From Selenomonadales bacterium (GTDB taxonomy: Bacteria > Bacillota > Negativicutes > Sporomusales > UBA7701), in assembly GCA_029976065.1 (NCBI GenBank), contig JARKNV010000069.1, forward strand, positions 62,001-126,000: a stretch of DNA of 64,000 nt, read 5' to 3'. The number at the start of each line of letters is the position of its first letter. The first letter of the stretch is position 1. Below are positions 15,703 to 27,454 of this stretch, in pieces. The translations under genes were made by a program, and so were the position numbers. The notes under the pieces are model-generated. The model saw only the letters and a program-made list of their open reading frames with translations, did no database searches and was not told the origin of the DNA.

Positions 15703-16662
15703 TTATATCCGTTCGTTGATGAGGTCTTTGGTGGCTTTGAAGACTTTGAAGAGCATTTTGTCGCGTTTCTTGCAGACTTCGGCGACGCTGCGGCCGCTGT
15801 AGTCGAAGAAGCCTTTGCCGGTCTTGACGCCGAGTTCGCCTTTGTCGACGTGGTCGAAGAGGGCTTTGGGGCGCTTGCTGGGCTCGGGCGGCTTGTAGCT
15901 GGCGTTGATGATGTTGTTGGCGCTGATGTCGAGGCCGGTGAAGTCGAAGCGCTGCACGAGGCCGAGGACCATGCCCCGGGGCATGAGGCTGGCCTTGACG
16001 GCCAGGTCGAGTTGCTCGGGGGTGCAGATGCCGTTGTCGAGCAGGTAGAATACTTCGGTGTTGAGGAGGATCTGGATGCGGTTGATGATGTAGCCGGGCA
16101 CGAATTTTTCCATTCTGACCGGCGTTTTGCCGCACTTCTGGAGGAGGGCGATGGTGACGGCCATCGTTTCCTCGCTGGTCTGTTCGCCGCGGGCGACTTC
16201 GACGAGGGGCAGGATCTGCGGCGGGGCGTACCAGTGGGCGGTGGTGAAATTGGGCAGCCGCCGCTCGGGGACGTAGAGGAAGGGGTTGAGCGAGGAGGCG
16301 TTGGAGACGATGATGGCGTCCGGCGGCAGCAGTTTGTCGAGTTCTTCGAATAGGGCCTGTTTGACGTCGGGCTTTTCGGCGACGGTCTCCTGGGCGAACT
16401 GGACGCCGGCGACCGCTTCGGAAAGGCTGGTGAAAAATTTTACCCGGCCGACGACTTCCTTGGCCTGTTCGGGGGTGAGCAGTTCTTCCTCGACGAAGGT
16501 GTCGACGTTGGTTTTGAGCATGACTTTGGCTTTTTCTAGGGTTTCGGCGCTGCGGGTGTAGAGGTTGACTTCGTAGCCGCCCATGGCGTAGTTCTGGGCG
16601 ATGCCCGGCCCCATGGTGCCGGCGCCGAGGACGGCGATTTTTTTGATGTCGGCGAGCTTCAT
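15703..16662 (-). CDS. 3-hydroxyacyl-CoA dehydrogenase-like NAD-dependent dehydrogenase
   Basis: 319 residues. An N-terminal Rossmann fold (IAVLGAGTMGPGIAQNYA) and a C-terminal helical domain with NRIQILLNTEV. The SNASSL loop and the AHWYAPPQILPLVEV motif place it with the 3-hydroxyacyl-CoA dehydrogenase superfamily. AHWY..P rather than GHPF..P resembles members acting on free 3-hydroxy acids (gulonate- or carnitine-dehydrogenase-like). It is 47 bases downstream of the beta-keto acid cleavage enzyme, so it probably makes that enzyme's 3-keto substrate. Substrate identity is unknown. Confidence 0.88.
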   Translation of the reverse strand: MKLADIKKIAVLGAGTMGPGIAQNYAMGGYEVNLYTRSAETLEKAKVMLKTNVDTFVEEELLTPEQAKEVVGRVKFFTSLSEAVAGVQFAQETVAEKPDVKQALFEELDKLLPPDAIIVSNASSLNPFLYVPERRLPNFTTAHWYAPPQILPLVEVARGEQTSEETMAVTIALLQKCGKTPVRMEKFVPGYIINRIQILLNTEVFYLLDNGICTPEQLDLAVKASLMPRGMVLGLVQRFDFTGLDISANNIINASYKPPEPSKRPKALFDHVDKGELGVKTGKGFFDYSGRSVAEVCKKRDKMLFKVFKATKDLINERI

Positions 16663-16709: not shown

Positions 16710-17552
16710 TTATTTGTGCTTGACGAGGCCGAGTAGCTGGCGCGCTTCGGCGGCGGTGGCGATTTCCCGGCCGGCCATTTTGCCGTATTCGCAGGCGCGG
16801 GCGACGAGCTGGGCGTTGGTGGCATAGACGCCTTTTTCAATGAAGATGTTGTCTTCGAGGCCGACGCGCAGGCCGTCGCAGCCGGCGGCCAGGCCGGCGA
16901 GCATCATGGGGACGTGGGCCTTGCCGATGCCGGTGATGGACCAGGTGGAGCCGGCGGGCAGCTTGGGCAGCAGGTAGGCGACGCTTTCGAGGTTGCCGGG
17001 CATGCCGCCGGGAACGTCGAGGACGAGCTGGCAGTGGCAGGGGGTTTTGAGGATGCCCTTTTTGAGGTAGTATTCGATGTTGCCGATCATGCCGGCGTCG
17101 AAGATTTCGAGCTCGGGTTTGATCTGCAGGTCCTGGCACACTTTGCCGAGGCGCTCGAGGAAGGCCGGGGTGTTGAGGAAAACGTAGCTGTTGGCCCAGT
17201 TCATCGAGCCGGGATCGTAGGAGCACATTTCGGGCATCAGGACGGGCAGGTGGCCGACGCGGAGGTCTTCCGACCAGGCGCTGCCCGAGGTGGTGAGGTT
17301 GATTACGATGTCGAGGCCGGCGTCGGCGATGGCTTTGCGAATCTTGCCGACGACTTCGACGAAGATTTCCGTCTGCATGCTGTTTTTGCCGTTTTCGTCG
17401 CGGACGTGGATGTGGGCGATGGCGGCGCCGGCTTTGGCGCAGGCGACGACGTCGGCGACGATTTCGTCGGGGGTGATGGGGACGTGCGGCGTCTGGGCCT
17501 TGGTGGTGCCGGCCCCGCAGACGGCGGCGGTTATGATAAGTTTTTTGTTCAT
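16710..17552 (-). CDS. Beta-keto acid cleavage enzyme (BKACE, DUF849 family)
   Basis: 280 residues. Family features: N-terminal LIITAAVCGAGTT, the zinc motif HIHVRD (His47, His49), VPGGMPGN, and GLEDNIF near 235 carrying the third zinc ligand. BKACE enzymes react a 3-keto acid with acetyl-CoA to give acetoacetate and a new acyl-CoA. At the position of Glu14 in the 3-keto-5-aminohexanoate enzyme (as I recall it) this protein has Gly15, so it belongs to a different substrate subgroup. Acetoacetate from this step could enter the CoA transferase and thiolase encoded nearby. Confidence 0.92.
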   Translation of the reverse strand: MNKKLIITAAVCGAGTTKAQTPHVPITPDEIVADVVACAKAGAAIAHIHVRDENGKNSMQTEIFVEVVGKIRKAIADAGLDIVINLTTSGSAWSEDLRVGHLPVLMPEMCSYDPGSMNWANSYVFLNTPAFLERLGKVCQDLQIKPELEIFDAGMIGNIEYYLKKGILKTPCHCQLVLDVPGGMPGNLESVAYLLPKLPAGSTWSITGIGKAHVPMMLAGLAAGCDGLRVGLEDNIFIEKGVYATNAQLVARACEYGKMAGREIATAAEARQLLGLVKHK

Positions 17553-17651: not shown

Positions 17652-18404
17652 TCAGCCCATATAGTTGGCGAGGCTTTTTCCTCCGCAGACGTAGAGGGTC
17701 TGCCCGGTTATGTAGGAGGCTTCCTCGTCGGCAAAGCCCAGGCAGGCGTAGGCGACGTCGGCCGCGGTGCCGATGCGTTTCATCGGCTGGACGGAAAGGT
17801 GCCGGTTCTGGGCTTTTTCGGACATGGAGCGGAACATGGCGGTTTCGATGATCCCCGGTGCGACGCAGTTGACGGTGACGCCGGAGCGGGCCAGCTCCAG
17901 GGCGAGGGAGCGGGTGAGGCTGACCACGCCGCCTTTGGCGGCCGAGTAGTTGGCCTGGCCGATGTTGCCCAGCCAGGCGCGGGAGGATATGTTGATGATG
18001 CGGCCGTATTGCTGCTCGATCATTATTTTGGCGGCGGCCCGCGCGCATAGGAAGTAGGAGCGGAGGTTGACGCGGATGACCCGGTCCCAGTCTTCGTCGG
18101 TCATTTTGGTGATGAAGCCGTCTCTGATGATGCCGACGTTGTTGACGAGGACGTCGAGGCGGCCAAAGCTGTCGATGATGGTCCGGAACACGGCTTCGAC
18201 CTGGGCGGAGTCGCTGACGTCGACGGCGAGGCCGAAGGCTTGGCCGCCTGCGACGGTGATTTCCCGCACCGCCGCGTCAGTGCGGTCGGGGTCGATGTCG
18301 TTTACGCCGACCAGCGCGCCTTCGCGGGCGAAACGGGCGGCAATCCCCTTGCCGATGCCGCGGCCGGAGCCGGTTACGAGGGCGATTCGTCCTTTAAGGC
18401 GCAT
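17652..18404 (-). CDS. Short-chain dehydrogenase/reductase
   Basis: 250 residues, classical SDR: TGSGRGIGKG nucleotide motif (residues 11-20), NNVG near 88, catalytic Ser in INISSRAW and YSAAKGG near 150, and the C-terminal GQTLYVCGG. The fold and length match FabG/3-hydroxybutyrate dehydrogenase-type oxidoreductases. It overlaps the tctA gene by 11 bases and lies about 100 bases before the BKACE gene, so oxidation of an imported hydroxy acid is a natural role. Specificity for NAD or NADP is not certain, though the VNDIDPD segment after strand 2 favours NAD. Confidence 0.9.
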   Translation of the reverse strand: MRLKGRIALVTGSGRGIGKGIAARFAREGALVGVNDIDPDRTDAAVREITVAGGQAFGLAVDVSDSAQVEAVFRTIIDSFGRLDVLVNNVGIIRDGFITKMTDEDWDRVIRVNLRSYFLCARAAAKIMIEQQYGRIINISSRAWLGNIGQANYSAAKGGVVSLTRSLALELARSGVTVNCVAPGIIETAMFRSMSEKAQNRHLSVQPMKRIGTAADVAYACLGFADEEASYITGQTLYVCGGKSLANYMG

Positions 18405-19884
18405 GGGGTTCCACCGCCTTCTTTTTTTTGCCGATCAGTTGGGTGGCGACGAGCAGGGCCGCCAGGCAGAGGAAGAAGAGCGCGATCGGGCGGGTGACGA
18501 AGATGGCGGGGTTGCCGTTGGAGATGATGAGCGATTGGCGGAAGGCGGTTTCAAGGATGGGGCCGAGGACGAACGCCAGCACCAGCGGCCCGGGTTCGAA
18601 ACCGAATTTGCGCATCAGGTAGCCGATGATGCCGAACAGCAGCAGGATCCACATGTCGAAGGTGTTGTTGTTGACGCTGTAGACGCCGATGAGGGTGATG
18701 ACGAGCACGCAGGCCGACAGGATGCTGAGCCTGACTTTGAGCAGTTTGACGAATAAGCCGATCATCGGCAGGTTGAGGATGAGGAGCAGGACGTTGCCGA
18801 TGTACATCGATACGACGACGCCCCAGAAGAGTTGGGGGACTTCCTGGATGAGGAAGGGCCCGGGCGTGACTCCGTGGATCATGAGGGCGCCGAACATCAG
18901 GGCCATGACGGCGTTGGACGGCAGCCCCAGGGTGAGGAGCGGGATGAAGGCGGAGCCGGCGGCGGCGTTGTTGGCGCTTTCCGGCCCGGCGACGCCTTCG
19001 ATGGCGCCTTGGCCGAATTCCTGCGGGTGCTTGGAAATGCGTTTCTCGACGGCGTAAGAAAGCAGCGAGGCGATTACCGCGCCGCCGCCCGGCAGGAGAC
19101 CTACCAGGAAGCCGAGCAGCGAGCCGCGGGCCATCGGTCCGGCCGAGGCGGCCAGGTCTTTGCGGGAGGGGAAAACCTGCGCTATTTTATCGGTGATGAG
19201 CTTGGTCTCGCCGCTGGATTCGAGGCTGTAGAGCACTTCGCCGACCCCGAAGAGGCCCATGGCGATGACGGCAAAGTCGAGGCCGCTCAGGAGGGCGTCG
19301 CTGTCGAAGGTCAGCCGCTGGCAGCCGTGCTCGGGATCGACGCCGATGACGGCCAGCAGCAGGCCGATGAGCGCCGAGATTACCGACCTGAGCGGCGACT
19401 GGGTCGACAGGTAGGTGATGAAGGTGAGGCCCATGACCATGAGGGCGACGTATTCGGGCGGACCGAATTTGATCGCCCAGCGGGATACGATGGGGGCGAA
19501 GAGGTTGAGGCCGACGATGGCGACCGTGCCGGCGACGAAGGAGCCGATGGCGGCTACGCCGAGGGCGGCGCCGGCACGGCCTTTTTTCGCCATCTGGTAG
19601 CCGTCGAGGGCGGTGACGACGGACGCCGCTTCCCCCGGCAGGTTGACGAGGATGGAGGTCGTCGAGCCGCCGTACATGGCCCCGTAGTATATGCCGGACA
19701 GCAGGATGATCGAGGATTCGAGCGGGATGTTGTACGTTAGGGGCAGCAGGAGCGAGATGGTGGCCACCGGGCCGAGTCCCGGGAGGACGCCGATGGCCGT
19801 GCCGAGCGTGACGCCGATGGCGCAGTATAGGATGTTGCTATAGGTGAGGGCGACCGAAAAGCCGAGCAGCAGCGAATCAAACAT
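18394..19884 (-). CDS. tctA: Tripartite tricarboxylate transporter, large permease
   Basis: 496 residues and about 12 membrane helices. It contains the family's GVLPGLGPVATISLLLPLTY near 35 and the second, repeat-related GFLVGLLPGGGAVIASLL near 260. It overlaps tctB by 8 bases and the SDR gene by 11. With tctC and tctB it forms a binding-protein-dependent, ion-driven importer for carboxylates. The ligand is set by TctC and cannot be read from TctA. Confidence 0.93.
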   Translation of the reverse strand: MFDSLLLGFSVALTYSNILYCAIGVTLGTAIGVLPGLGPVATISLLLPLTYNIPLESSIILLSGIYYGAMYGGSTTSILVNLPGEAASVVTALDGYQMAKKGRAGAALGVAAIGSFVAGTVAIVGLNLFAPIVSRWAIKFGPPEYVALMVMGLTFITYLSTQSPLRSVISALIGLLLAVIGVDPEHGCQRLTFDSDALLSGLDFAVIAMGLFGVGEVLYSLESSGETKLITDKIAQVFPSRKDLAASAGPMARGSLLGFLVGLLPGGGAVIASLLSYAVEKRISKHPQEFGQGAIEGVAGPESANNAAAGSAFIPLLTLGLPSNAVMALMFGALMIHGVTPGPFLIQEVPQLFWGVVVSMYIGNVLLLILNLPMIGLFVKLLKVRLSILSACVLVITLIGVYSVNNNTFDMWILLLFGIIGYLMRKFGFEPGPLVLAFVLGPILETAFRQSLIISNGNPAIFVTRPIALFFLCLAALLVATQLIGKKKKAVEPHAP

Positions 19885-20329
19885 GGAAGCACCCTCTTTC
19901 CAGGAGCGATAGCAGCCCGGGGAAGGGTATCTTCAGCCACAGGGAGAAGAGCAGGTAGACGGCGACGGTCATCCCGGCGGTGACGAGGGCGCTCATTTTC
20001 CACGTTTCGGCGCCGACGACGCGGAGCTGGAAGATCAGCAAGCCTACGACGGCCGGCACCATGCCCAGCGTCTTGAAGATGACGATGAACACGGCGGTGG
20101 CGGCAATGCTATAGATAACCAGTTTTGTCTTGCCGGTGAATTTTTCGTAGTTGTCTTTGCGGACATCTTTGACGAACAGGATTAGTGAACAGGCCACAAG
20201 CATGACGGCCAGTATGAACGGCCACAGCCCAGGTCCCGGTTTGCTCAGTTGTCCGAGTTCAAGTGCGTATGCCCCGATGCCGGCTACGAGGCCGATGACC
20301 AGGGGCACGATTCCTCCCAGTAGTCCCAT
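19877..20329 (-). CDS. tctB: Tripartite tricarboxylate transporter, small permease
   Basis: 150 residues from the ATG at 20329 (MGLLGGIVPLVIG), which follows GGGGGTT; a longer TTG start at 20365 has no good ribosome site and runs into a stem-loop. Four hydrophobic helices, the usual TctB pattern, with low sequence conservation. Located between tctC and tctA with an 8-base overlap with tctA. Confidence 0.85.
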   Translation of the reverse strand: MGLLGGIVPLVIGLVAGIGAYALELGQLSKPGPGLWPFILAVMLVACSLILFVKDVRKDNYEKFTGKTKLVIYSIAATAVFIVIFKTLGMVPAVVGLLIFQLRVVGAETWKMSALVTAGMTVAVYLLFSLWLKIPFPGLLSLLERGCFHV

Positions 20330-20367
20330 TGCCGAACCCCCAAAGTTTTCTTTCGCGCAGGACAAGC

Positions 20368-20416: not shown

Positions 20417-21388
20417 TTATTTTGTCTGGCCGATCTTTTTGAAGTAGTCGCCGATTTCCTTGTAGCCGTCGACGAGTTTCTTCTTGAATTCGTCGCCGGG
20501 AGTGTTGTCGGGCGGTAGGTTGACGGTTTTCATGGTGTTGAGGAACTCGGGGTCGTTGGCGGCCTTTTTGAAGGCTTCGCGCAGAATGTTCAGGCGGTCT
20601 TTGGGCACGCCGGCCGGGGCGCCGAGGCCGAGCCACGAGACGATGGCGATATCGTAGCCCAATTCTTTGAGGGTCGGGGCATCGGGAGCTTCAGGCATGC
20701 GTTTTTCGCCGGCGGCCGCCAGGACGCGGACTTCGCCGGATTTGAGGAAGGGCATCAGGTCGCCGGTGGTGACGACGGTGAAGTCGACGTGGCCGCCGAT
20801 GAGCGCGGTCATGACTTCGGTGCCGGATTTGAAGTTGACATAGCGGAATTTGGCGCCGTCTTTTTCGCCGATCCTGTTGGCGACAAACGGCTGCGGATAG
20901 CCGGAGGCGCTGAAGGAGAAGCCCTCCGGTTTGGCCTTGGCGGCCTTGGACAGATCGGCAATGGTTTTATAGGGGGAGTCGGCCTTTACGGCGACGCAGT
21001 ATTGGTACTGGCCGTAGGCGATGATCCCTTCGAAGTCGTCGGGGGTATAGGGGACCTTGGTCTGGTTGGGGATGATGGCTACGCTGGCGAAGGTCATGAC
21101 GCCGATCGTTTGGCCGTCCTTGCTGCCGTTTTTGAGTTCGGCGACGCCGGTGACGCCGTTGGCGCCCGGTTTATTGACGGCGACGATGGAGACGCCGAGG
21201 TGCTTCTCGGCGGCTTTGGCGAGCGCGCGGGCGCTTAGGTCGGTCGAACCGCCGGCGCCGAAGTTTATGTACATGGTAATCGGTTTGGTGGGAAATTTCT
21301 CCGCTTTTTCGCCGCCGCCGCCGCAGCCCGCCACCAGGGCCGCCGCGAACAGCACGCAGACAATTAACGCCACCCATTTGGTTTTCAT
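20417..21388 (-). CDS. tctC: Tripartite tricarboxylate transporter, substrate-binding protein
   Basis: 323 residues. A lipoprotein signal (ALVAGCGGG, lipid Cys near 22) is followed by the Bug/TctC fold with FPTKPITMYINFGAGGSTD and the later NKPGANGVTGVAEL loop. It captures a carboxylate in the periplasm and delivers it to TctAB. First gene of the transporter operon. Its 325-base leader carries the conserved RNA element at 21476-21640 and a promoter at 21720-21749. Ligand unknown. Confidence 0.93.
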   Translation of the reverse strand: MKTKWVALIVCVLFAAALVAGCGGGGEKAEKFPTKPITMYINFGAGGSTDLSARALAKAAEKHLGVSIVAVNKPGANGVTGVAELKNGSKDGQTIGVMTFASVAIIPNQTKVPYTPDDFEGIIAYGQYQYCVAVKADSPYKTIADLSKAAKAKPEGFSFSASGYPQPFVANRIGEKDGAKFRYVNFKSGTEVMTALIGGHVDFTVVTTGDLMPFLKSGEVRVLAAAGEKRMPEAPDAPTLKELGYDIAIVSWLGLGAPAGVPKDRLNILREAFKKAANDPEFLNTMKTVNLPPDNTPGDEFKKKLVDGYKEIGDYFKKIGQTK

Positions 21389-21475: not shown

Positions 21476-21640
21476 AACAAAAAGCCTAGCTCATAAAAAC
21501 ACAACGATATACTCGAAGTGTTATTACGAGCTAAGCTTGCCTACTACATATCGAAAGGTCATTTCGATACCATAAGTCCAAGCGACTCATAGCAACCGCT
21601 AAGGTTACCGGGCTTATCGCCGGCATTAGCGATCTTGTAA
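21476..21640 (-). ncRNA. Candidate riboswitch, copy C, with terminator, in the tctC leader
   Basis: Read on the minus strand, a stem CGCTAA (21631-21626) with TTAGCG (21602-21597) encloses a CCGG hairpin. It is followed by GCTTG (21583-21579) paired with CAAGC (21539-21535) around a TATCGA-type hairpin. A terminator follows (AAGCTTAGCTC 21538-21528 with 21492-21482, then TTTTTGTTTTA). The CAAGC arm overlaps the terminator's 5' arm, so the two folds exclude each other. Long blocks are identical to copy B (22520-22690) in front of the thiolase operon. It matches no riboswitch class I can recall. Confidence 0.65.
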
Positions 21641-21719
21641 TTCTTATTTTCGGTTTTGGGAATCCCGGCTGCCTGTCAAAGTGCCAGAATTCGCAAGATT
21701 TTGACATATCTTAAAACAG

Positions 21720-21749
21720 ATTATAACCGATGATGTCGACGGTCGTCAA
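21720..21749 (-). promoter_or_regulatory. Promoter of the tctC leader
   Basis: Minus strand TTGACG (21749-21744), 18 bases, TATAAT (21725-21720), giving a start near 21713, about 75 bases before the structured leader. The -35 touches the end of the 21746-22105 gene, so the transporter operon has its own promoter. Confidence 0.65.
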
Positions 21750-22105
21750 GCCCCCGTCTGCTGGACGGACATCCGCTTGTGCCCCGACATGATCATTTTG
21801 CGCGTGAGGATGAAGTGGTTGTAAACGCCCTGCACAGCGGATATCAGGGCGCGTTTCGACGGGGTGTGCATCCGTTCGTCAATATCCCTGATGATCACTT
21901 CCTTGTCGTCTGACAGTGATTTGCCGGCGAGGATTTTTTTGACGAATGTGTTTTGGATGTCGCAGTACATCGGTACGTGACAATCAATGATTTCCCCGGA
22001 GTCGATGTCGACCGTTACGATTATGCAGACAAATTTATGGCGCTGGGATATGTCCGTTTCGGTCGGCACCTGTGCCTGCGCGGAAAAGATGTGCTCCCTG
22101 CCCAT
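21746..22105 (-). CDS. DUF3870 family protein
   Basis: 119 residues; start at 22105 (MGREHIFSAQAQVP) behind GAGGTG, preferred over an upstream ATG without a site. A compact soluble protein with a VCIIVTVDIDSGEIIDCHVPMYCDIQ segment and a basic C-terminal half; it matches my memory of the DUF3870 family in Negativicutes and Clostridia. Function is not known. It sits between two divergent operons that share the same leader RNA, so a regulatory role is possible but unproven. No clear promoter was found in 22106-22339. Confidence 0.65.
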   Translation of the reverse strand: MGREHIFSAQAQVPTETDISQRHKFVCIIVTVDIDSGEIIDCHVPMYCDIQNTFVKKILAGKSLSDDKEVIIRDIDERMHTPSKRALISAVQGVYNHFILTRKMIMSGHKRMSVQQTGA

Positions 22106-22339
22106 TTTTTCACCTCGTTGCGGAAAATTTTGATGCAAATTTCCGGGCCGTGGATATACAAGTTCTCTTAATTATCTGTATTTTCCTGCCGGCGGTGTAT
22201 AGATTTTTTATATAGGCATTTTATTGACTTACCGTTATGTTTGGGGATGTAGTCCTGCGTTTCGCCGTTTTCCCGCCTTCAGCCGGACCTTTTTCGACAC
22301 TGCAGGCGCGTTTTTGCGAATAACTTCGCTGCCGACGTC

Positions 22340-22369
22340 TTGACGCGGCCGGCGGGTATCGTTTAAAAT
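22340..22369 (+). promoter_or_regulatory. Promoter of the thiolase operon leader
   Basis: TTGACG (22340-22345), 18 bases, TAAAAT (22364-22369), predicted start near 22376. This makes a leader of about 355 bases that holds two successive RNA elements before the thiolase start at 22733. Confidence 0.6.
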
Positions 22370-22379
22370 AATTATTGAG

Positions 22380-22500
22380 TTAATGGTACCGAGTTGCTTG
22401 GTTATTGTATCGGAACACAATTTCGATATGTAGTGAACAAGCCCAGCTCGTTAAATGCGTTAATGCTCTGCATTGCATTTTACGGTCTGGGCTTGTTCAT
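22380..22500 (+). ncRNA. Candidate riboswitch, copy A (short form), thiolase leader
   Basis: A shorter relative of copies B and C. GCTTG (22396-22400) pairs with CAAGC (22438-22442) around a TATCG/CGATA hairpin, with the shared GATATG.AGT and AGCTCGT blocks. CAAGC is also part of a perfect 12-bp stem, GAACAAGCCCAG (22435-22446) with 22487-22498, again mutually exclusive. The 3' stem is not followed by a clear T-run, so this copy may pause or regulate differently. The upstream CGCTAA/TTAGCG stem is missing. Confidence 0.5.
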
Positions 22501-22519
22501 TGGCAAAAGAAAATAGGGG

Positions 22520-22692
22520 TTGAAATCGCTAACTCAGATGCCGGACGCACGGCCTGGTATTTTTAGCGGTTGCTATGAGTCGCTTGGACTTATGGTATCG
22601 AACGAACTTCGATATGGAGTAAGCAAGCTTAGCTCGTAATGACACTGCGAATGGTTCGTCGTGTTCTTATCAGAGCTAAGCTTTTTGATTTT
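22520..22692 (+). ncRNA. Candidate riboswitch, copy B, with terminator, thiolase leader
   Basis: Full-length form. CGCTAA (22527-22532) pairs with TTAGCG (22563-22568) around a GCCG hairpin. GCTTG (22582-22586) pairs with CAAGC (22624-22628) around TATCGAA/TTCGATA (22596-22614). A terminator has AAGCTTAGCTC (22625-22635) perfectly paired with 22673-22683, followed by TTTTTGATTTT. The overlap of CAAGC with the terminator arm gives the alternative folding expected of a switch. The thiolase ribosome site follows about 30 bases later. No T-box or cobalamin-box motif is present. Confidence 0.65.
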
Positions 22693-22732
22693 ATCGAGCT
22701 AATCAGCAAATTATCGAATGGAGGTAACAAGT

Positions 22733-23923
22733 ATGGAAGAAGTTGTCATCGTAAGCGCTGTACGGACGCCGATCGGCAAGATCGGCGGCGCCCTGCGCGA
22801 TGTCCCGCCTGAAGATTTGGCCAGAGACGTTATCGCGGAGAGCATCCGGCGCGCCAATGTGGAGCCCGATAGGATCGACGAGGTGATTTTCGGCCAGACG
22901 AAGCAGAGCGCCGAAGCGGCCAATCTGGCCAGGGTGGCGGCGCTAAAGGCCGGGCTGCCGATCGGGGTGCCGGCTTATACGGTGATGCGCCAGTGCGCCT
23001 CCGGGCTGCAGGCGGTGAACAACGCCGCCCAGGCGATCATGTGCGGGCTGGCCGATACCGTGGTGGCCGGCGGCACGGAGAGTATGAGCAACGCGGTGTA
23101 TTATCTCCGCAACGCGCGCTACGGCTACGGAGCCGGCAACGGCGTACTGTGCGATTCGAATATCGAGAGCCAGGCCCGTTCGCAGCCGATGGAGGTTTAC
23201 GGGCAGCTGACGATGGGCTTGACGGCGGAAAATCTGGCGGCGATGTATTCGATCAGCCGCGAGGAGCAGGACTTGTACGCCCTGGGAAGCCAACAGAAGG
23301 CCCAGGCGGCGATCAAGAGCGGCCGGTTCAAGGAGGAGATTCTCCCGGTGACGATTCCGAAAAAGAAGGGCGCGCCGGTTATTTTCGCTACCGACGAGTT
23401 CCCCCGGCCGACGACGCTGGAAGGGCTGGCGAAGTTGCCGCCGGCGTTCAAAAAGGACGGCACGGTGACGGCCGGGAACGCGACCGGCCGCAACGACGGC
23501 GCGAGCAGCCTGGTGGTCATGTCGGCGAAGGAGGCCGCGCGGCGGAGCCTGAAGCCGCTGGCGGTGCTGCGCAGCCAGGCGGCGGCGGGCGTGCCGCCGG
23601 AGATCATGGGGATCGGCCCGGTCCATGCGACGAGGAAGGCGCTGAAGCTGGCGGGGCTTACGCTGGCGGACATCGGCCTGATCGAGATGAATGAGGCGTT
23701 CGCGGCCCAGTGCCTGGCGTGTATAAAAGAGCTCGATATGAATACGGCTATTCTGAATGTCAACGGCGGCGCGATCGCGCTCGGCCATCCCCTCGGCTGC
23801 ACGGGGGCGCGCATTCTGACGACGCTGCTGTACGAGATGCGGCGGCGGCAGGTGAAGTACGGCCTGGCGACGCTCTGCATCGGCGGCGGCATGGGGGTCG
23901 CCGACGTGGTCGAGCTGGTTTAG
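22733..23923 (+). CDS. Acetyl-CoA C-acetyltransferase (thiolase)
   Basis: 396 residues from the ATG at 22733 (MEEVVIVSAVRTPIG), since GGAGGT lies seven bases upstream; an in-frame ATG at 22718 overlaps that site. The active-site Cys88 is in MRQCASGLQAV, the second-site histidine in NGGAIALGHPLGCTGAR (with the second Cys), and the C-terminal CIGGGMG loop is intact. Degradative/biosynthetic thiolase II family. It could split acetoacetyl-CoA formed from the BKACE product acetoacetate. First gene of a four-gene operon. Confidence 0.93.
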   Translation: MEEVVIVSAVRTPIGKIGGALRDVPPEDLARDVIAESIRRANVEPDRIDEVIFGQTKQSAEAANLARVAALKAGLPIGVPAYTVMRQCASGLQAVNNAAQAIMCGLADTVVAGGTESMSNAVYYLRNARYGYGAGNGVLCDSNIESQARSQPMEVYGQLTMGLTAENLAAMYSISREEQDLYALGSQQKAQAAIKSGRFKEEILPVTIPKKKGAPVIFATDEFPRPTTLEGLAKLPPAFKKDGTVTAGNATGRNDGASSLVVMSAKEAARRSLKPLAVLRSQAAAGVPPEIMGIGPVHATRKALKLAGLTLADIGLIEMNEAFAAQCLACIKELDMNTAILNVNGGAIALGHPLGCTGARILTTLLYEMRRRQVKYGLATLCIGGGMGVADVVELV

Positions 23924-23965: not shown

Positions 23966-24874
23966 ATGATTTACCGGAATTTCGACCAGCTCCTTGAGCG
24001 GGTCTGCGCCGGCAAGCACGAGAAAAAGGTCGTGGCGGTGATGGCCGCCGAGGACAGCCACACGCTCGAGGCGGTTTGCCAGGCGGCCAGGGTGGGCGCG
24101 GTGGAGCCGCTGCTGATCGGCGATAAGCTGAAGATGCGCCGACAGCTCGAGCTGTTGGGGGAGTGCCCGGCGGATTACGCGCTCGTGCACGCGGAGACGG
24201 CCGCGGATGTGGTTTACAAGGCGGCTCAGCTCGTGAACGACGGCGAGGCGCATTTCCTGATGAAGGGCCTGATCCCGACCGGGGAAATGATGAAGCACCT
24301 GCTGAGCGAGAGGTGCGGGTTCCGCACGGAGATGCAGATGTCCCACCTGGGACTCGTCCAGATTCCCAATTACCATAAACTGATCGGCATTACCGATTCG
24401 GCGCTGCTTGTCTATCCCGATCTGCAGCAGAAGAAGAGCATGGTTATAAACGCGGTGAACGCGATGCTGCGGATGGGCTTCGATCCGCCGAAGGTGGCGG
24501 TTCTGGCGGCGGTGGAGCAGGTTAACCCGAAGATGCCGGAAACGCTGGACGCCGAGGCGCTGCGACAGATGAACGCCGCCGGCGAGATTGCCGGCTGCAT
24601 CGTGGCGGGGCCTATTTCGTACGACCTGGCGATCAGCAGGGAGTCGGCGGAGCTGAAAGGCTATGACAGCCCGGTGTGCGGCGACGTGGATTTGCTGGTG
24701 GCGCCGAATATCGCCGCCGCCAATATTCTGCTGAAGGCGCTCCGCTATTCCGCCGCGGCGAGCAGCGCGGGGTTCGTGGTCGGCGGCCGGGTGCCGCTGG
24801 TGCTGACTTCGCGCGCGGCGGAGGTGGGCAGCAAGTATTTGCCGATCGTCCTGGCGGCGGCGGCATCGGCGTAG
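23966..24874 (+). CDS. ptb: Phosphate butyryltransferase (phosphate acyltransferase family)
   Basis: 302 residues, the size of Ptb. It has the family's LMKGLIPTGEMMKHLL near 90-105 and the PVCGDVDLLVAPNIAAANILLKAL region, in which the acyl phosphate binds. It converts butyryl-CoA (or a similar acyl-CoA) and phosphate to the acyl phosphate. Followed 37 bases later by butyrate kinase, with which it forms the usual ATP-yielding pair. Range of acyl groups not readable. Confidence 0.9.
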   Translation: MIYRNFDQLLERVCAGKHEKKVVAVMAAEDSHTLEAVCQAARVGAVEPLLIGDKLKMRRQLELLGECPADYALVHAETAADVVYKAAQLVNDGEAHFLMKGLIPTGEMMKHLLSERCGFRTEMQMSHLGLVQIPNYHKLIGITDSALLVYPDLQQKKSMVINAVNAMLRMGFDPPKVAVLAAVEQVNPKMPETLDAEALRQMNAAGEIAGCIVAGPISYDLAISRESAELKGYDSPVCGDVDLLVAPNIAAANILLKALRYSAAASSAGFVVGGRVPLVLTSRAAEVGSKYLPIVLAAAASA

Positions 24875-24910: not shown

Positions 24911-26002
24911 GTGGCGGAAACGATCTATAGAATATTGTCCATCAATCCCGGCTCGACGTCGACGAAGATCGCCGTGTACGAGAACGACAGGGAGTTACTC
25001 CGCAAGAATGTCAGCCATGACGCCGCGGAGCTGGCCAAGTACAAGTCGATGGTCGACCAGTTGCCGATGCGCAAGGAGGCGATCAGGGCCTGCCTGCTGG
25101 AGGAGAATTTCGTGCTCGCCGGCCTGTCGGCGGTGGCGGGCCGGGGCGGCAAGCTGCCGCCGCTGAAGCGCGGCGCTTACAGGGTCACGCAGGAAATGGC
25201 CGATTTCCTTACATACCGCCCGATCGACGAGCACGCCTCCAATCTGGGCGCGATTATCGCCTACAGCATCGCCGAGCCGCTCGGCATCCCGTCGTTCATT
25301 TACGATGCGGTGGTGGTCGACGAGCTGGCGGAGGTGGCGCGGTATTCCGGGGTGCCGGAGCTGACGCGGCGGGCTGCCTGCCATGTGCTCAATATGCGGG
25401 CGGTGTCCCGCAAGGTGGCCGAGAAGAGGGGCGGGAAGTTGGAGGATCTGAATATCGTGGTGACGCACATGGGCGGCGGCATCACGGCGGCGGTGATCAG
25501 CAAGGGGCGGATGATCGACGTCCTCACCGACGAGGAGGGGGCTTTTTCGCCGGAGCGGGCCGGCCGGGTGCCGTGCCGCCAGCTGGTGGACCTGTGCTAC
25601 TCTGGCAAGCTGGAGCATAAGGCGGCGATCAGGCGCATGCGGGGCAACGGCGGCCTGATCGCCTATCTGGGAACGAACAGCGCGCTCGATGTCGAGGCGC
25701 GCATCAGGCAGGGCGACAAGGAAGCCGAAAGCGTTTATTACGCCATGGCCTACCAGACGGCCAAGGGCATCGGCGAGCTGGCGACGGTGGTCAACGGCGA
25801 GGTGGATGTGATTATCCTTACGGGGGCGATCGCTTATTCGCAGCTGTTTACCGACTGGGTCGCCGCCAGGGTGAATTTCATCGCGCCGGTGGAGATCGTG
25901 GCCGGCGAAAATGAGCTTGAGGCGTTGGCGCTTGGCGCGTTGCGCGTCCTGAAGGGCGAGGAGACGGCCAGGGAATTCAGCTTGGTTCCGCCCTCCGTCT
26001 GA
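24911..26002 (+). CDS. buk: Butyrate kinase
   Basis: 363 residues; GTG start behind GGGGGGAG. It is an acetate/butyrate kinase-fold ATPase: N-terminal ILSINPGSTSTKIAVYEND, the THMGGGITAAVISKGRMIDVL segment and the ILTGAIAYSQ motif. It makes ATP and a free acid from acyl phosphate. The order ptb-buk after thiolase suggests energy conservation from an acyl-CoA made in the catabolic block. Isobutyrate or other branched acids are also accepted by this family. Confidence 0.93.
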   Translation: MAETIYRILSINPGSTSTKIAVYENDRELLRKNVSHDAAELAKYKSMVDQLPMRKEAIRACLLEENFVLAGLSAVAGRGGKLPPLKRGAYRVTQEMADFLTYRPIDEHASNLGAIIAYSIAEPLGIPSFIYDAVVVDELAEVARYSGVPELTRRAACHVLNMRAVSRKVAEKRGGKLEDLNIVVTHMGGGITAAVISKGRMIDVLTDEEGAFSPERAGRVPCRQLVDLCYSGKLEHKAAIRRMRGNGGLIAYLGTNSALDVEARIRQGDKEAESVYYAMAYQTAKGIGELATVVNGEVDVIILTGAIAYSQLFTDWVAARVNFIAPVEIVAGENELEALALGALRVLKGEETAREFSLVPPSV

Positions 26003-26050: not shown

Positions 26051-27454
26051 ATGGTACTTACTTTGGGTCATTTTGTCGGCGTGGCTGCCACGCTTATTGT
26101 GATGATCGCGGTCGGCTTGTACGCCGGCAGCAAGGTAAAGTCGTCGTCCGATTTCGCCACCGGCGGGCGCCAGGCGGGGCAGTCGGTGGTCGCCGGGGCG
26201 ATCATGGGCACGCTGGTAAGCGGCGCGTCCACGATCGGCACCGCCCAATTGGCCTTCCAATACGGCTTTTCGGCGTGGTGGTTCACGCTGGGGGCCGGGA
26301 TCGCCTGCGCGGTGCTCGGTTTGGGAACGGCACGGCGCTTCTATGAGGGCTCGTGCGAGACAATCGCCCAGTATCTGGTCAAAACGTACGGGACGCCGAT
26401 CGGGCCACTTTCCACCGTCTTCGGCGCATTAGGAATGTTCTTGAGCATGATCAGTCAGGTGCTGGCGTTCATCGCCCTGATGACGACGATGTTCCCCATC
26501 AGCCCGCTGACGGCGGCGGCGATCGGCATCGTGTTCGTGCTGTGTTATGTGCTGTTCGGCGGGGTGTGGGGCGTCGGCCTGGTCGGCGTGGCCAAGCTGA
26601 TCCTGCTGTATGTGGCGATGATTTCCTGCGGGGCGATCGCGCTGGTCATGATGGGCGGGGTCGGGGGGCTGCAGGCGAGTTTCCCGGCGTTCCCGTGGTT
26701 TTCGCTGTTCGGCCGGGGGGTGGAGAAGGATCTTGCCGGCGGGGTCTCGCTGGTGGTGGGCGTGCTGTCGACCCAGACTTACGCCCAGGCGATCGCCGCC
26801 GGGCGGAGTTTTTCCGAGGCGCGCAAGGGGGCGCTGTGGTCGGCGCTGCTCATCCCGCCGATCGGCATCGGCGGGATCATGGTCGGACTGTTCATGCGGG
26901 CTAATTTCCCCGGCACGCCTTCGAGCGAGGTGCTGCCGACCTTCATCCTGGGGTATCTGCCGCCGGTGCTGTCCGGCGTCATCCTGGCGACCCTGCTGAT
27001 CACGGCCGTGGGCGGCTGGGCGGGTTTGCTGTTCGGCATTTCGACGATGTTCACGCGCGATATCTATCAGCGGTTCATCAGGCAGCAGGCGCAGCAGGGC
27101 GAGGCGCTGCTGGTGCAGCGGACGGCGATCGTCGTCGTCGTGCTGCTGTCGGCGCTGGTGGCGACCGGCAACGCGGGGTCGCTGATCCTGGGCTGGAGCT
27201 TCCTGTCGATGGGCCTGCGGGGCTGCACCATCCTCTGCCCGCTGCTGGGGGCGATGTTCTTCCCGCGCTACCTGACCCCGGCGGCCGGCATAGCGGCGGC
27301 GTTTCTGGGGCCGGTGACGAACGTTGTATGGTTCCTGTGCTTCCCCAAAGGGGTCGATCCGCTTTATCCCGGGCTGCTCGCGAGCCTGGCGGCGCTGCTG
27401 GTCGTAAGCCTGTTCACGAGGAAGAAGGCGCGGCCGGCGGATTTGCCGGCGTAA
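26051..27454 (+). CDS. Sodium:solute symporter family transporter
   Basis: 467 residues and about 12-13 membrane helices with the SSS layout: an early SSSDFATGGRQAGQSVV loop, a VSGASTIGTAQLAFQYGFSAWW first-repeat segment, and a LFGGVWGVGLVG middle motif. Last gene of the thiolase-ptb-buk operon, before a bidirectional terminator. It may take up the growth substrate or export the carboxylic acid product. Direction and ligand are unknown. Confidence 0.88.
   Translation: MVLTLGHFVGVAATLIVMIAVGLYAGSKVKSSSDFATGGRQAGQSVVAGAIMGTLVSGASTIGTAQLAFQYGFSAWWFTLGAGIACAVLGLGTARRFYEGSCETIAQYLVKTYGTPIGPLSTVFGALGMFLSMISQVLAFIALMTTMFPISPLTAAAIGIVFVLCYVLFGGVWGVGLVGVAKLILLYVAMISCGAIALVMMGGVGGLQASFPAFPWFSLFGRGVEKDLAGGVSLVVGVLSTQTYAQAIAAGRSFSEARKGALWSALLIPPIGIGGIMVGLFMRANFPGTPSSEVLPTFILGYLPPVLSGVILATLLITAVGGWAGLLFGISTMFTRDIYQRFIRQQAQQGEALLVQRTAIVVVVLLSALVATGNAGSLILGWSFLSMGLRGCTILCPLLGAMFFPRYLTPAAGIAAAFLGPVTNVVWFLCFPKGVDPLYPGLLASLAALLVVSLFTRKKARPADLPA

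Follow-up and report, generated by a model that had tools for sequence, protein, structure and literature searches.

We analyzed a 64,000-nt stretch of DNA (hereafter the window) from a Selenomonadales bacterium, located on contig C58 of a draft genome (3.42 Mb, 87.9% complete), and found in it three copies of a hairpin element of approximately 64 nt that stand before two divergent catabolic operons. Each copy overlaps a terminator-like stem, and a gene for a protein of the DUF3870 family (PF12986), for which we know of no function, lies just upstream of one of the copies. From sequence comparison, we give a probability of roughly 0.73 to the reading that the conserved hairpin is bound by the DUF3870 protein encoded beside it, leading to antitermination into the operons.

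The hairpin element and its terminator share one arm

Copy C lies on the minus strand in the leader of tctC (positions 21524..21589), and copies A (22390..22453) and B (22576..22639) follow each other on the plus strand in the leader of a thiolase gene. The first-pass annotation of the window had placed three copies here, two of them in series, and the sequence bears this out. The three copies share the consensus GAGTYGCTTG-(TTAT)-KG-TATCG..hairpin..CGATA-(AGTR)-CAAGCYYAGCTC, and the GCTTG/CAAGC stem, which the annotation had described as starting a terminator with its 3′ arm, is present in all of them. Since CAAGCYYAGCTC forms the 3′ arm of the element and doubles as the 5′ arm of the terminator stem in the window copies, the antiterminator and terminator folds are mutually exclusive. 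Terminator C (21478..21538, minus strand; identified by sequence and overlap score) begins with the arm AAGCTTAGCTC, which is the 3′ arm of antiterminator C. Terminator A (22434..22500, plus strand; repeat and stem search, overlap score) has a strong stem and a weak U-tract (TTGTTCATT), and terminator B (22625..22687, plus strand) was identified by its overlap score. In folding predictions, the antiterminator forms in the three window copies and in six copies of two sister species when the sequence stops at the end of the element, and the terminators form when the window leaders are folded with the terminator sequence included. The competition between two folds proposed earlier is supported. 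As read from the sequence, the element is an attenuator, with two mutually exclusive stems, one of which is followed by a U-tract.

Copies B and C also carry an upstream CGCTAA/TTAGCG stem with a CCGG hairpin (copy C: 21595..21633, minus strand, ATCGCTAA/TTAGCGGT; copy B: 22525..22571, plus strand), which had been noticed before and which folding and comparison in three species indicate to be real. Compensatory changes are present in the sister species, with CGCTGA/TCAGCG in copy C of genome G002, CGCCGA/TTGGCG and CGCCAA/TTGGCG in copies C and B of G004, respectively, and a shorter CGCC/GGCG in copy B of G002. Since this stem is seen in the window's genus alone, it is counted as an add-on outside the element core.

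The element forms a dispersed, covarying RNA family

A covariance model built on the three window copies (R1) matched 11 of the 380 class genomes; these belong to 5 of 102 genera, and most of them have several copies. A covariance model search of the window's own genome returned no copies beyond C, A, and B. A second model built from 31 copies (R2), with which copies C, A, and B score 76.1, 73.9, and 68.4 bits, respectively, matched 10 of the order's 28 genomes, leaving a wide score gap, and among the matches listed all had E-values below 1e-7 save one weak match. In 398 genomes sampled across the phylum, R2 found the window genome, a strong new match of 50.8 bits in a genome of another class (G678), and a weak match of 27.5 bits in G715; in the class of G678, the element occurs in 1 of 22 genomes. 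The RNA searches over more than 40 genomes used stricter filters, by which weak copies may be lost, and many of the genomes are drafts.

For the analysis of covariation, 52 copies from 12 genomes were aligned (alignment A6, on which the covariation of copy C was also read). The weak R2 match in G305 (C101:7317, 24.6 bits, E = 0.006) and the match in G715 (E = 1.7e-4, without DUF3870) were left out, and two odd copies were retained, namely G305:C11, which is without a terminator, and G296:C68, which is degenerate (41.4 bits) and without a downstream gene. With the copies aligned to the model, which favors the structure, 93.5% of the cells are paired and double-sided changes occur in 15 of 20 pairs. 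The double-change cells number 86 versus 25 in shuffles, and pairing falls to 29‒49% when the partner is slid by 1‒3 columns. By its covariation and its presence in front of many operons, the hairpin is a dispersed RNA family. A local duplication without function is hardly credible. It might be suggested by copies B and C, which are 92% identical over 51 nt and 83% over 66 nt in the repeat search (A and B, 82% over 33 nt; A and C, 76% over 50 nt), but the 52 copies in 12 genomes stand before many different operons, covary, and have terminators, and these dispersed copies rule out duplication as the sole explanation.

At the Rfam gathering score, the window yields a single match, to a cobalamin riboswitch at 43.6 kb, away from the elements, and the low-threshold matches over the leaders are to off-target families (microRNAs, small RNAs, and others) far below their gathering scores. 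Nothing was found over the elements at the gathering score in 20 element loci, where the lone match is a separate molybdenum cofactor (Moco) riboswitch downstream of one element. We thus reject a known Rfam class for the element, in agreement with the first-pass annotation, which had named such a match or a single local duplication as the outcomes that would speak against a new RNA; neither occurred. A screen of titles and abstract openings among the papers listed by searches of the open-access literature found no account of such an element, and as far as this literature shows, it is absent from print.

Terminator overlap and probable default termination

An overlapping terminator with a score of at least 10 was found for 50 of the 52 copies, compared with 10 of 1040 shuffled downstream sequences. 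This score replaced an earlier, laxer one, which accepted 51 of the 52 copies but also 91 of 260 shuffles. The exceptions are the two odd copies, G305:C11, where the terminator is missing, and the degenerate G296:C68. The missing terminator hairpin of a type I element, as we call the element found in the window, at L109 (3689‒3753, minus strand) may reflect a deletion or an assembly collapse.

When the two hairpins are folded separately, the terminator has the greater stability in 50 of the 52 copies, and when they are folded jointly, the GCTTG arm does not pair near the 3′ end of the element in 32 copies. Since the terminator is the more stable hairpin in nearly all copies and the GCTTG arm is released in most, termination is likely the default for most copies. 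Two results weigh against a uniform default. In the joint folding, 18 of the 52 copies still pair the GCTTG arm close to the 3′ end of the element (two were unclassifiable), and copies B and C, when truncated at CAAGC, form a rival hairpin, GCTATGAGTC/GACTTATGGT, instead. This hairpin is perhaps a third state in the window's genus.

A single DUF3870 clade accompanies the element

The DUF3870 gene of the window (21746..22105, minus strand, 119 aa, with a Met start after GAGGTG) scores 64.7 bits with PF12986 and 182.9 bits with a profile of one DUF3870 clade (A4). The PF12986 scores, 64.3‒64.7 bits, compare with a Pfam gathering cut-off of 22. DUF3870 proteins occur in 77 of the 380 class genomes. 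With A4, 18 proteins reach 155 bits or more, and the genomes encoding them are exactly the 11 with the element; no other protein of the 380 genomes exceeds 74.3 bits. A4 was drawn mostly from proteins that neighbor elements, and part of this agreement follows from the choice of its members. Within genus g11, four genomes have both the element and the clade protein and five have neither (one of the five is only 58% complete), and in genus g1, three genomes have both and two have neither. G678 provides an independent test, as it was found by the RNA model alone, and a match to the clade lies 87 nt upstream of its element. In the 398 phylum genomes, A4 found G678 alone besides the window genome (136.1 bits; next 76.3 bits). 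The clade is monophyletic with a branch support of 95/92, and G678 falls within it. The element and this DUF3870 clade share the same surveyed genomes, the weak match in G715 aside.

The two are also close on the chromosome. In 12 of 19 clade genes, an element lies 65‒259 nt downstream on the same strand. All distances start at the profile-match edge, and the gaps from the stop codon are accordingly shorter. Three of the 19 genes have an element 94‒242 nt upstream, one of which also has one downstream, and in two the nearest element is 2.5 and 3.3 kb away. The remaining three have no element within 5 kb, where an unfiltered search gave nothing above 9.4 bits.

These observations bear on whether the hairpin is a true riboswitch that binds a pathway metabolite, with DUF3870 as a mere frequent member or neighbor of the regulon. 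The conserved bases of the internal loop (UAUGG / AGUA) and the simple terminator overlap suit a small aptamer, and the lack of an Rfam match and a regulon with genes of one pathway are in keeping with it. We consider this reading unlikely, since one clade occurs in exactly the element genomes and in the blindly found G678, and since 12 of the 19 clade genes precede their nearest element, which places them outside the control of that copy. Different clades beside different hairpin-terminators, as described below, are also unexpected for a chance pairing of gene and aptamer. The earlier proposal of a new riboswitch thus holds as regards a new cis-regulatory leader, but binding of an acid or a CoA ester by the RNA itself is not favored, and a protein is the likely binder. 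A small molecule, if any, would be sensed by the protein.

The predicted fold of DUF3870 is beta-alpha-beta-beta-alpha-alpha-alpha (predicted local distance difference test score 89). The nearest solved folds are IscU/SufU, the C-terminal domain of lipoate ligase, and domains of molybdo-flavoenzymes, with scores that may reflect no more than a similar arrangement. In the one paper found to name the family, PF12986 is assigned to a C-terminal lipoprotein domain from Bacteroides with a fold like that of pore-forming toxins, and the consulted part of that article does not mention RNA (PMC4387736). As far as that part describes it, this domain and our DUF3870 model look different in fold, and perhaps two families stand under one name.

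Other DUF3870 clades stand beside other hairpin-terminators

We compared the 300 nt downstream of each of 115 distinct DUF3870 proteins on fetched loci; the class search lists 137 matches. The patterns for the two further element types below were written after seeing the sequences, so their counts describe and do not predict. All 28 fetched genes of type II, recognized by an NNPIT/NDAVT motif in the protein, are followed by a GCTGCTT..ATCCAGC hairpin-terminator that precedes peptidase-, racemase-, and dipeptide-epimerase-like genes. The type II element has the form GCTGCTTTGTTTAT..hairpin..TAAATAAAATCCAGC, and its CCAGC opens the terminator (for example at L084, 1360‒1426, minus strand). All nine fetched genes of type III (AKPxKxD; loci L102, L105, L125, L127, L149‒L151, L153, and L160) are followed by a CTTATTTATTGGT..GAGATA..AAGACC hairpin-terminator, which can also be written TCTTATTTATTGGT..ACCGAGATA..ATAAGACC. 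Neither element was found beside any other clade, including the clades GITA, GTVS, GEAR, and VAKV, and the fetched loci (2.0 Mb, both strands) contain only one further distinct match, near L105 2080 on the minus strand, upstream of a type III gene.

The type II element is paired in 98.2% of cells, with 17 double-change cells versus 6.5 in shuffles and 33‒45% pairing in the slid controls; the counts of double-change pairs and of additional pair types were not above the shuffles, of which 90 and 87 of 500, respectively, were as high. The covariation of type III was not above shuffles either, with too little variation in the alignment. A fold-based test for antiterminators was not discriminating and is not counted as evidence, as it accepted 21 of 25 type II elements, 7 of 8 type III elements, and also 12 of 26 control terminators (shuffles, about 0.3). 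Eighteen type II and III loci gave nothing over the elements at the Rfam gathering score, and R2, applied to 100 loci with DUF3870 genes of other clades, gave as its best match the type III element of L127 with only 15.8 bits (E = 0.19). Among the first genes behind type II elements are some that resemble peptidase, dipeptide epimerase, glutamate racemase, and aminoacylase genes, and those behind type III elements include genes for a DapB-like dehydrogenase, SHMT, and glutamate racemase; they were read from mechanical translations without a profile scan, and several of the open reading frames are plainly spurious.

Additional, distinct hairpin-terminators stand behind DUF3870 genes of other classes at five loci, L135, L141, L142, L146, and L147 (for example TTTATCTGC..GCAGATAA), some of which precede methylmalonyl-CoA mutase-like or CoA-transferase-like genes. 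At L121 and L122, a type I-like terminator (GCAGGCCTGGTTCATG..) without a recognizable antiterminator lies right past the DUF3870 stop codon and is followed by a mutase-like gene.

We regard the protein as the likely binder because of the clade co-occurrence, the gene-element-operon layout, and the distinct elements that accompany other clades. Three unrelated aptamers, each beside a different paralogue, would be an odd coincidence, and RNA-binding regulators of one family whose targets have diverged seem the better account. DUF3870 could still be an enzyme or accessory protein of the pathway, its IscU-like predicted fold holding a metal or a modified cysteine, with another factor, protein or RNA, acting on the RNA. 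Its position within catabolic operons and its fold matches to IscU and other non-RNA proteins agree with such a role, but the clades stand beside unrelated operons, with peptidase-, racemase-, or CoA-enzyme-like first genes, and keep the gene-hairpin-terminator layout, which fits a regulator better and makes an enzymatic role quite improbable. We lean, at somewhat better than even odds, to the broader view that DUF3870 is a new class of RNA-binding antiterminators on an IscU-like fold, each clade of which evolved together with a hairpin-terminator of its own (three or more element families) and controls polyphenol, peptide/amino-acid, or acyl-CoA catabolism in anaerobic Firmicutes.

Element-led operons and the probable pathway in the window

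The operons behind the elements were characterized by Pfam scans of 50 downstream proteins selected from 135. In G310, the element leads an operon of cupin, PF04199 cyclase, 3HCDH, BKACE, SDR, and thiolase genes, and G305 is similar by length and similarity. In G296, genes for a molybdoenzyme like pyrogallol transhydroxylase (PF21423), an iron-sulfur protein, and DUF3870 precede the element, which is followed by cyclase, thiolase, phosphotransacylase, and kinase genes; the layout of G295 resembles it by length and similarity. A PF21423 enzyme (106.7 bits) is encoded immediately past the element in G678. Other regulon genes function in Moco synthesis or encode TRAP, MFS, and SSF transporters and URO-D-type methyltransferases. 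In G308, a Moco riboswitch (RF01055, 61.8 bits; L040, 1617‒1745, plus strand) directly follows the element ahead of moaA-moaC-MOSC-moeA, so that two leaders stand in series. The association with carboxylate transport or acyl-CoA genes that the first-pass annotation had proposed to look for is supported by a dispersed regulon of such genes.

For the anaerobic degradation of phloroglucinol by Clostridium scatologenes, the consulted part of a published study describes a set of PGR, cyclohydrolase, dehydrogenase, and lyase, with a co-induced thiolase and butyrate kinase (PMC10470551). This set has a family-level match in G310, and only the dehydrogenase- and lyase-like genes were seen in the window. 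A search for AhtL/transhydroxylase matched none of three genomes (G000, G002, and G004), but the controls likewise gave no match. By family and context, the element-led operons look like operons for trihydroxybenzene (phloroglucinol/pyrogallol) catabolism.

On the minus strand of the window, the DUF3870 gene is followed by the leader with copy C and by tctC (20417..21388, PF03401), tctB (19877..20365, PF07331), tctA (18394..19884, PF01970), an SDR oxidoreductase (17652..18404), a BKACE enzyme (16710..17552), and a 3-hydroxyacyl-CoA-dehydrogenase-like gene (15703..16662). The BKACE enzyme, a candidate triacetate acetoacetate-lyase, is 82‒83% identical to those in element-led operons of four genomes. 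The dehydrogenase, a candidate 3-hydroxy-5-oxohexanoate dehydrogenase, is 49‒79% identical across element-led operons, with the values of 77‒79% for G308 and G067. Because of these identities, the window likely codes for the lower steps of this route. The SDR is only 29‒32% identical to the SDRs of four element-led operons, and because of this and the missing transhydroxylase match, for which the controls were silent too, the substrate of the window's pathway may be a C6 keto acid rather than the phenol itself. On the plus strand, the divergent leader with A and B precedes genes for the thiolase (22718..23923), which shares 82% identity with its counterparts behind elements in G295 and G296, a phosphate acetyl/butyryl transferase (23966..24874), a butyrate-kinase-like member of the acetokinase family (24911..26002), and a sodium:solute symporter (26051..27454).

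Promoter-like sites, suitably placed, were found for the tctC leader (21720..21749, minus strand, TTGACG-18-TATAAT) and for the thiolase leader (22340..22369, plus strand, TTGACG-18-TAAAAT) by a consensus scan only, which gave four sites where shuffles yield 2.3. Beside the catabolic genes lies a gene for a sigma-54 activator (13993‒15615, minus strand), followed by CoA-transferase and methylmalonyl-CoA mutase genes. The cobalamin riboswitch of the window (43621‒43788, minus strand, 105.8 bits) sits among cobalamin synthesis genes, with those for CobS, CobU, CobQ/CbiA, and tetrapyrrole methylases.

Proposed mechanism and relation to known antiterminators

In the mechanism that we propose, the clade I DUF3870 protein would bind the antiterminator hairpin, which is the likely target because it is the conserved, covarying part of the leader. 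The bound hairpin would be held against the terminator, so that RNA polymerase reads into the operons, much as with LicT or HutP. The protein would be activated by a pathway substrate or intermediate; our guess is triacetate, 3-hydroxy-5-oxohexanoate, or another C6 keto acid, because such an acid fits the genes that the window and the other operons have in common. The DUF3870 protein of the window would serve copy C just downstream of its gene as well as the divergent tandem of A and B, and in G067 and G308, where an element lies ahead of the DUF3870 gene itself, a self-amplifying loop would result.

The ribonucleic antiterminator (RAT) hairpins of the LicT/BglG systems differ from the type I element in sequence and size. 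In the Bacillus hut operon, the hutP gene lies just before the regulated terminator, which is the same regulator-first order as here, and HutP resembles DUF3870 in being a small single-domain protein. The DUF3870 proteins fall outside both families, as DUF3870 was the only family above cut-off in eight proteins scanned. The LicT/SacY/BglG RAT, as described in the parts of the literature considered (PMC3369936, PMC7430163), is likewise a stem with internal loops that overlaps the terminator of catabolic operons, and here too a small RNA-binding protein would stabilize the stem; the protein differs, being DUF3870 instead of CAT-PRD. HutP, according to the consulted part of PMC7430163, binds NAG repeats in two clusters, whereas the present target is a structured, covarying hairpin. 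The dual-loop leaders of ANTAR proteins, within what was consulted of PMC3369936, are similar in that one protein acts on several terminators of a regulon and P2 overlaps the terminator. Two stem-loops, both with A1 and G4 in the loop, make up such a leader, but alignment A6 shows a single conserved hairpin, whose loop of roughly five bases varies and has no conserved G4, so we do not count the element as an ANTAR target.

Few families of RNA-binding antiterminators are known, and the literature considered names the BglG/LicT type, ANTAR, HutP, and GlpP. If our reading is true, a domain that 77 of the 380 class genomes carry would gain a function, along with RNA partners ready for testing, and one protein clade per RNA type would be a natural set for studies of protein-RNA recognition. 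Our reading would also indicate how some anaerobes likely turn on the breakdown of trihydroxybenzenes, a central step of polyphenol degradation.
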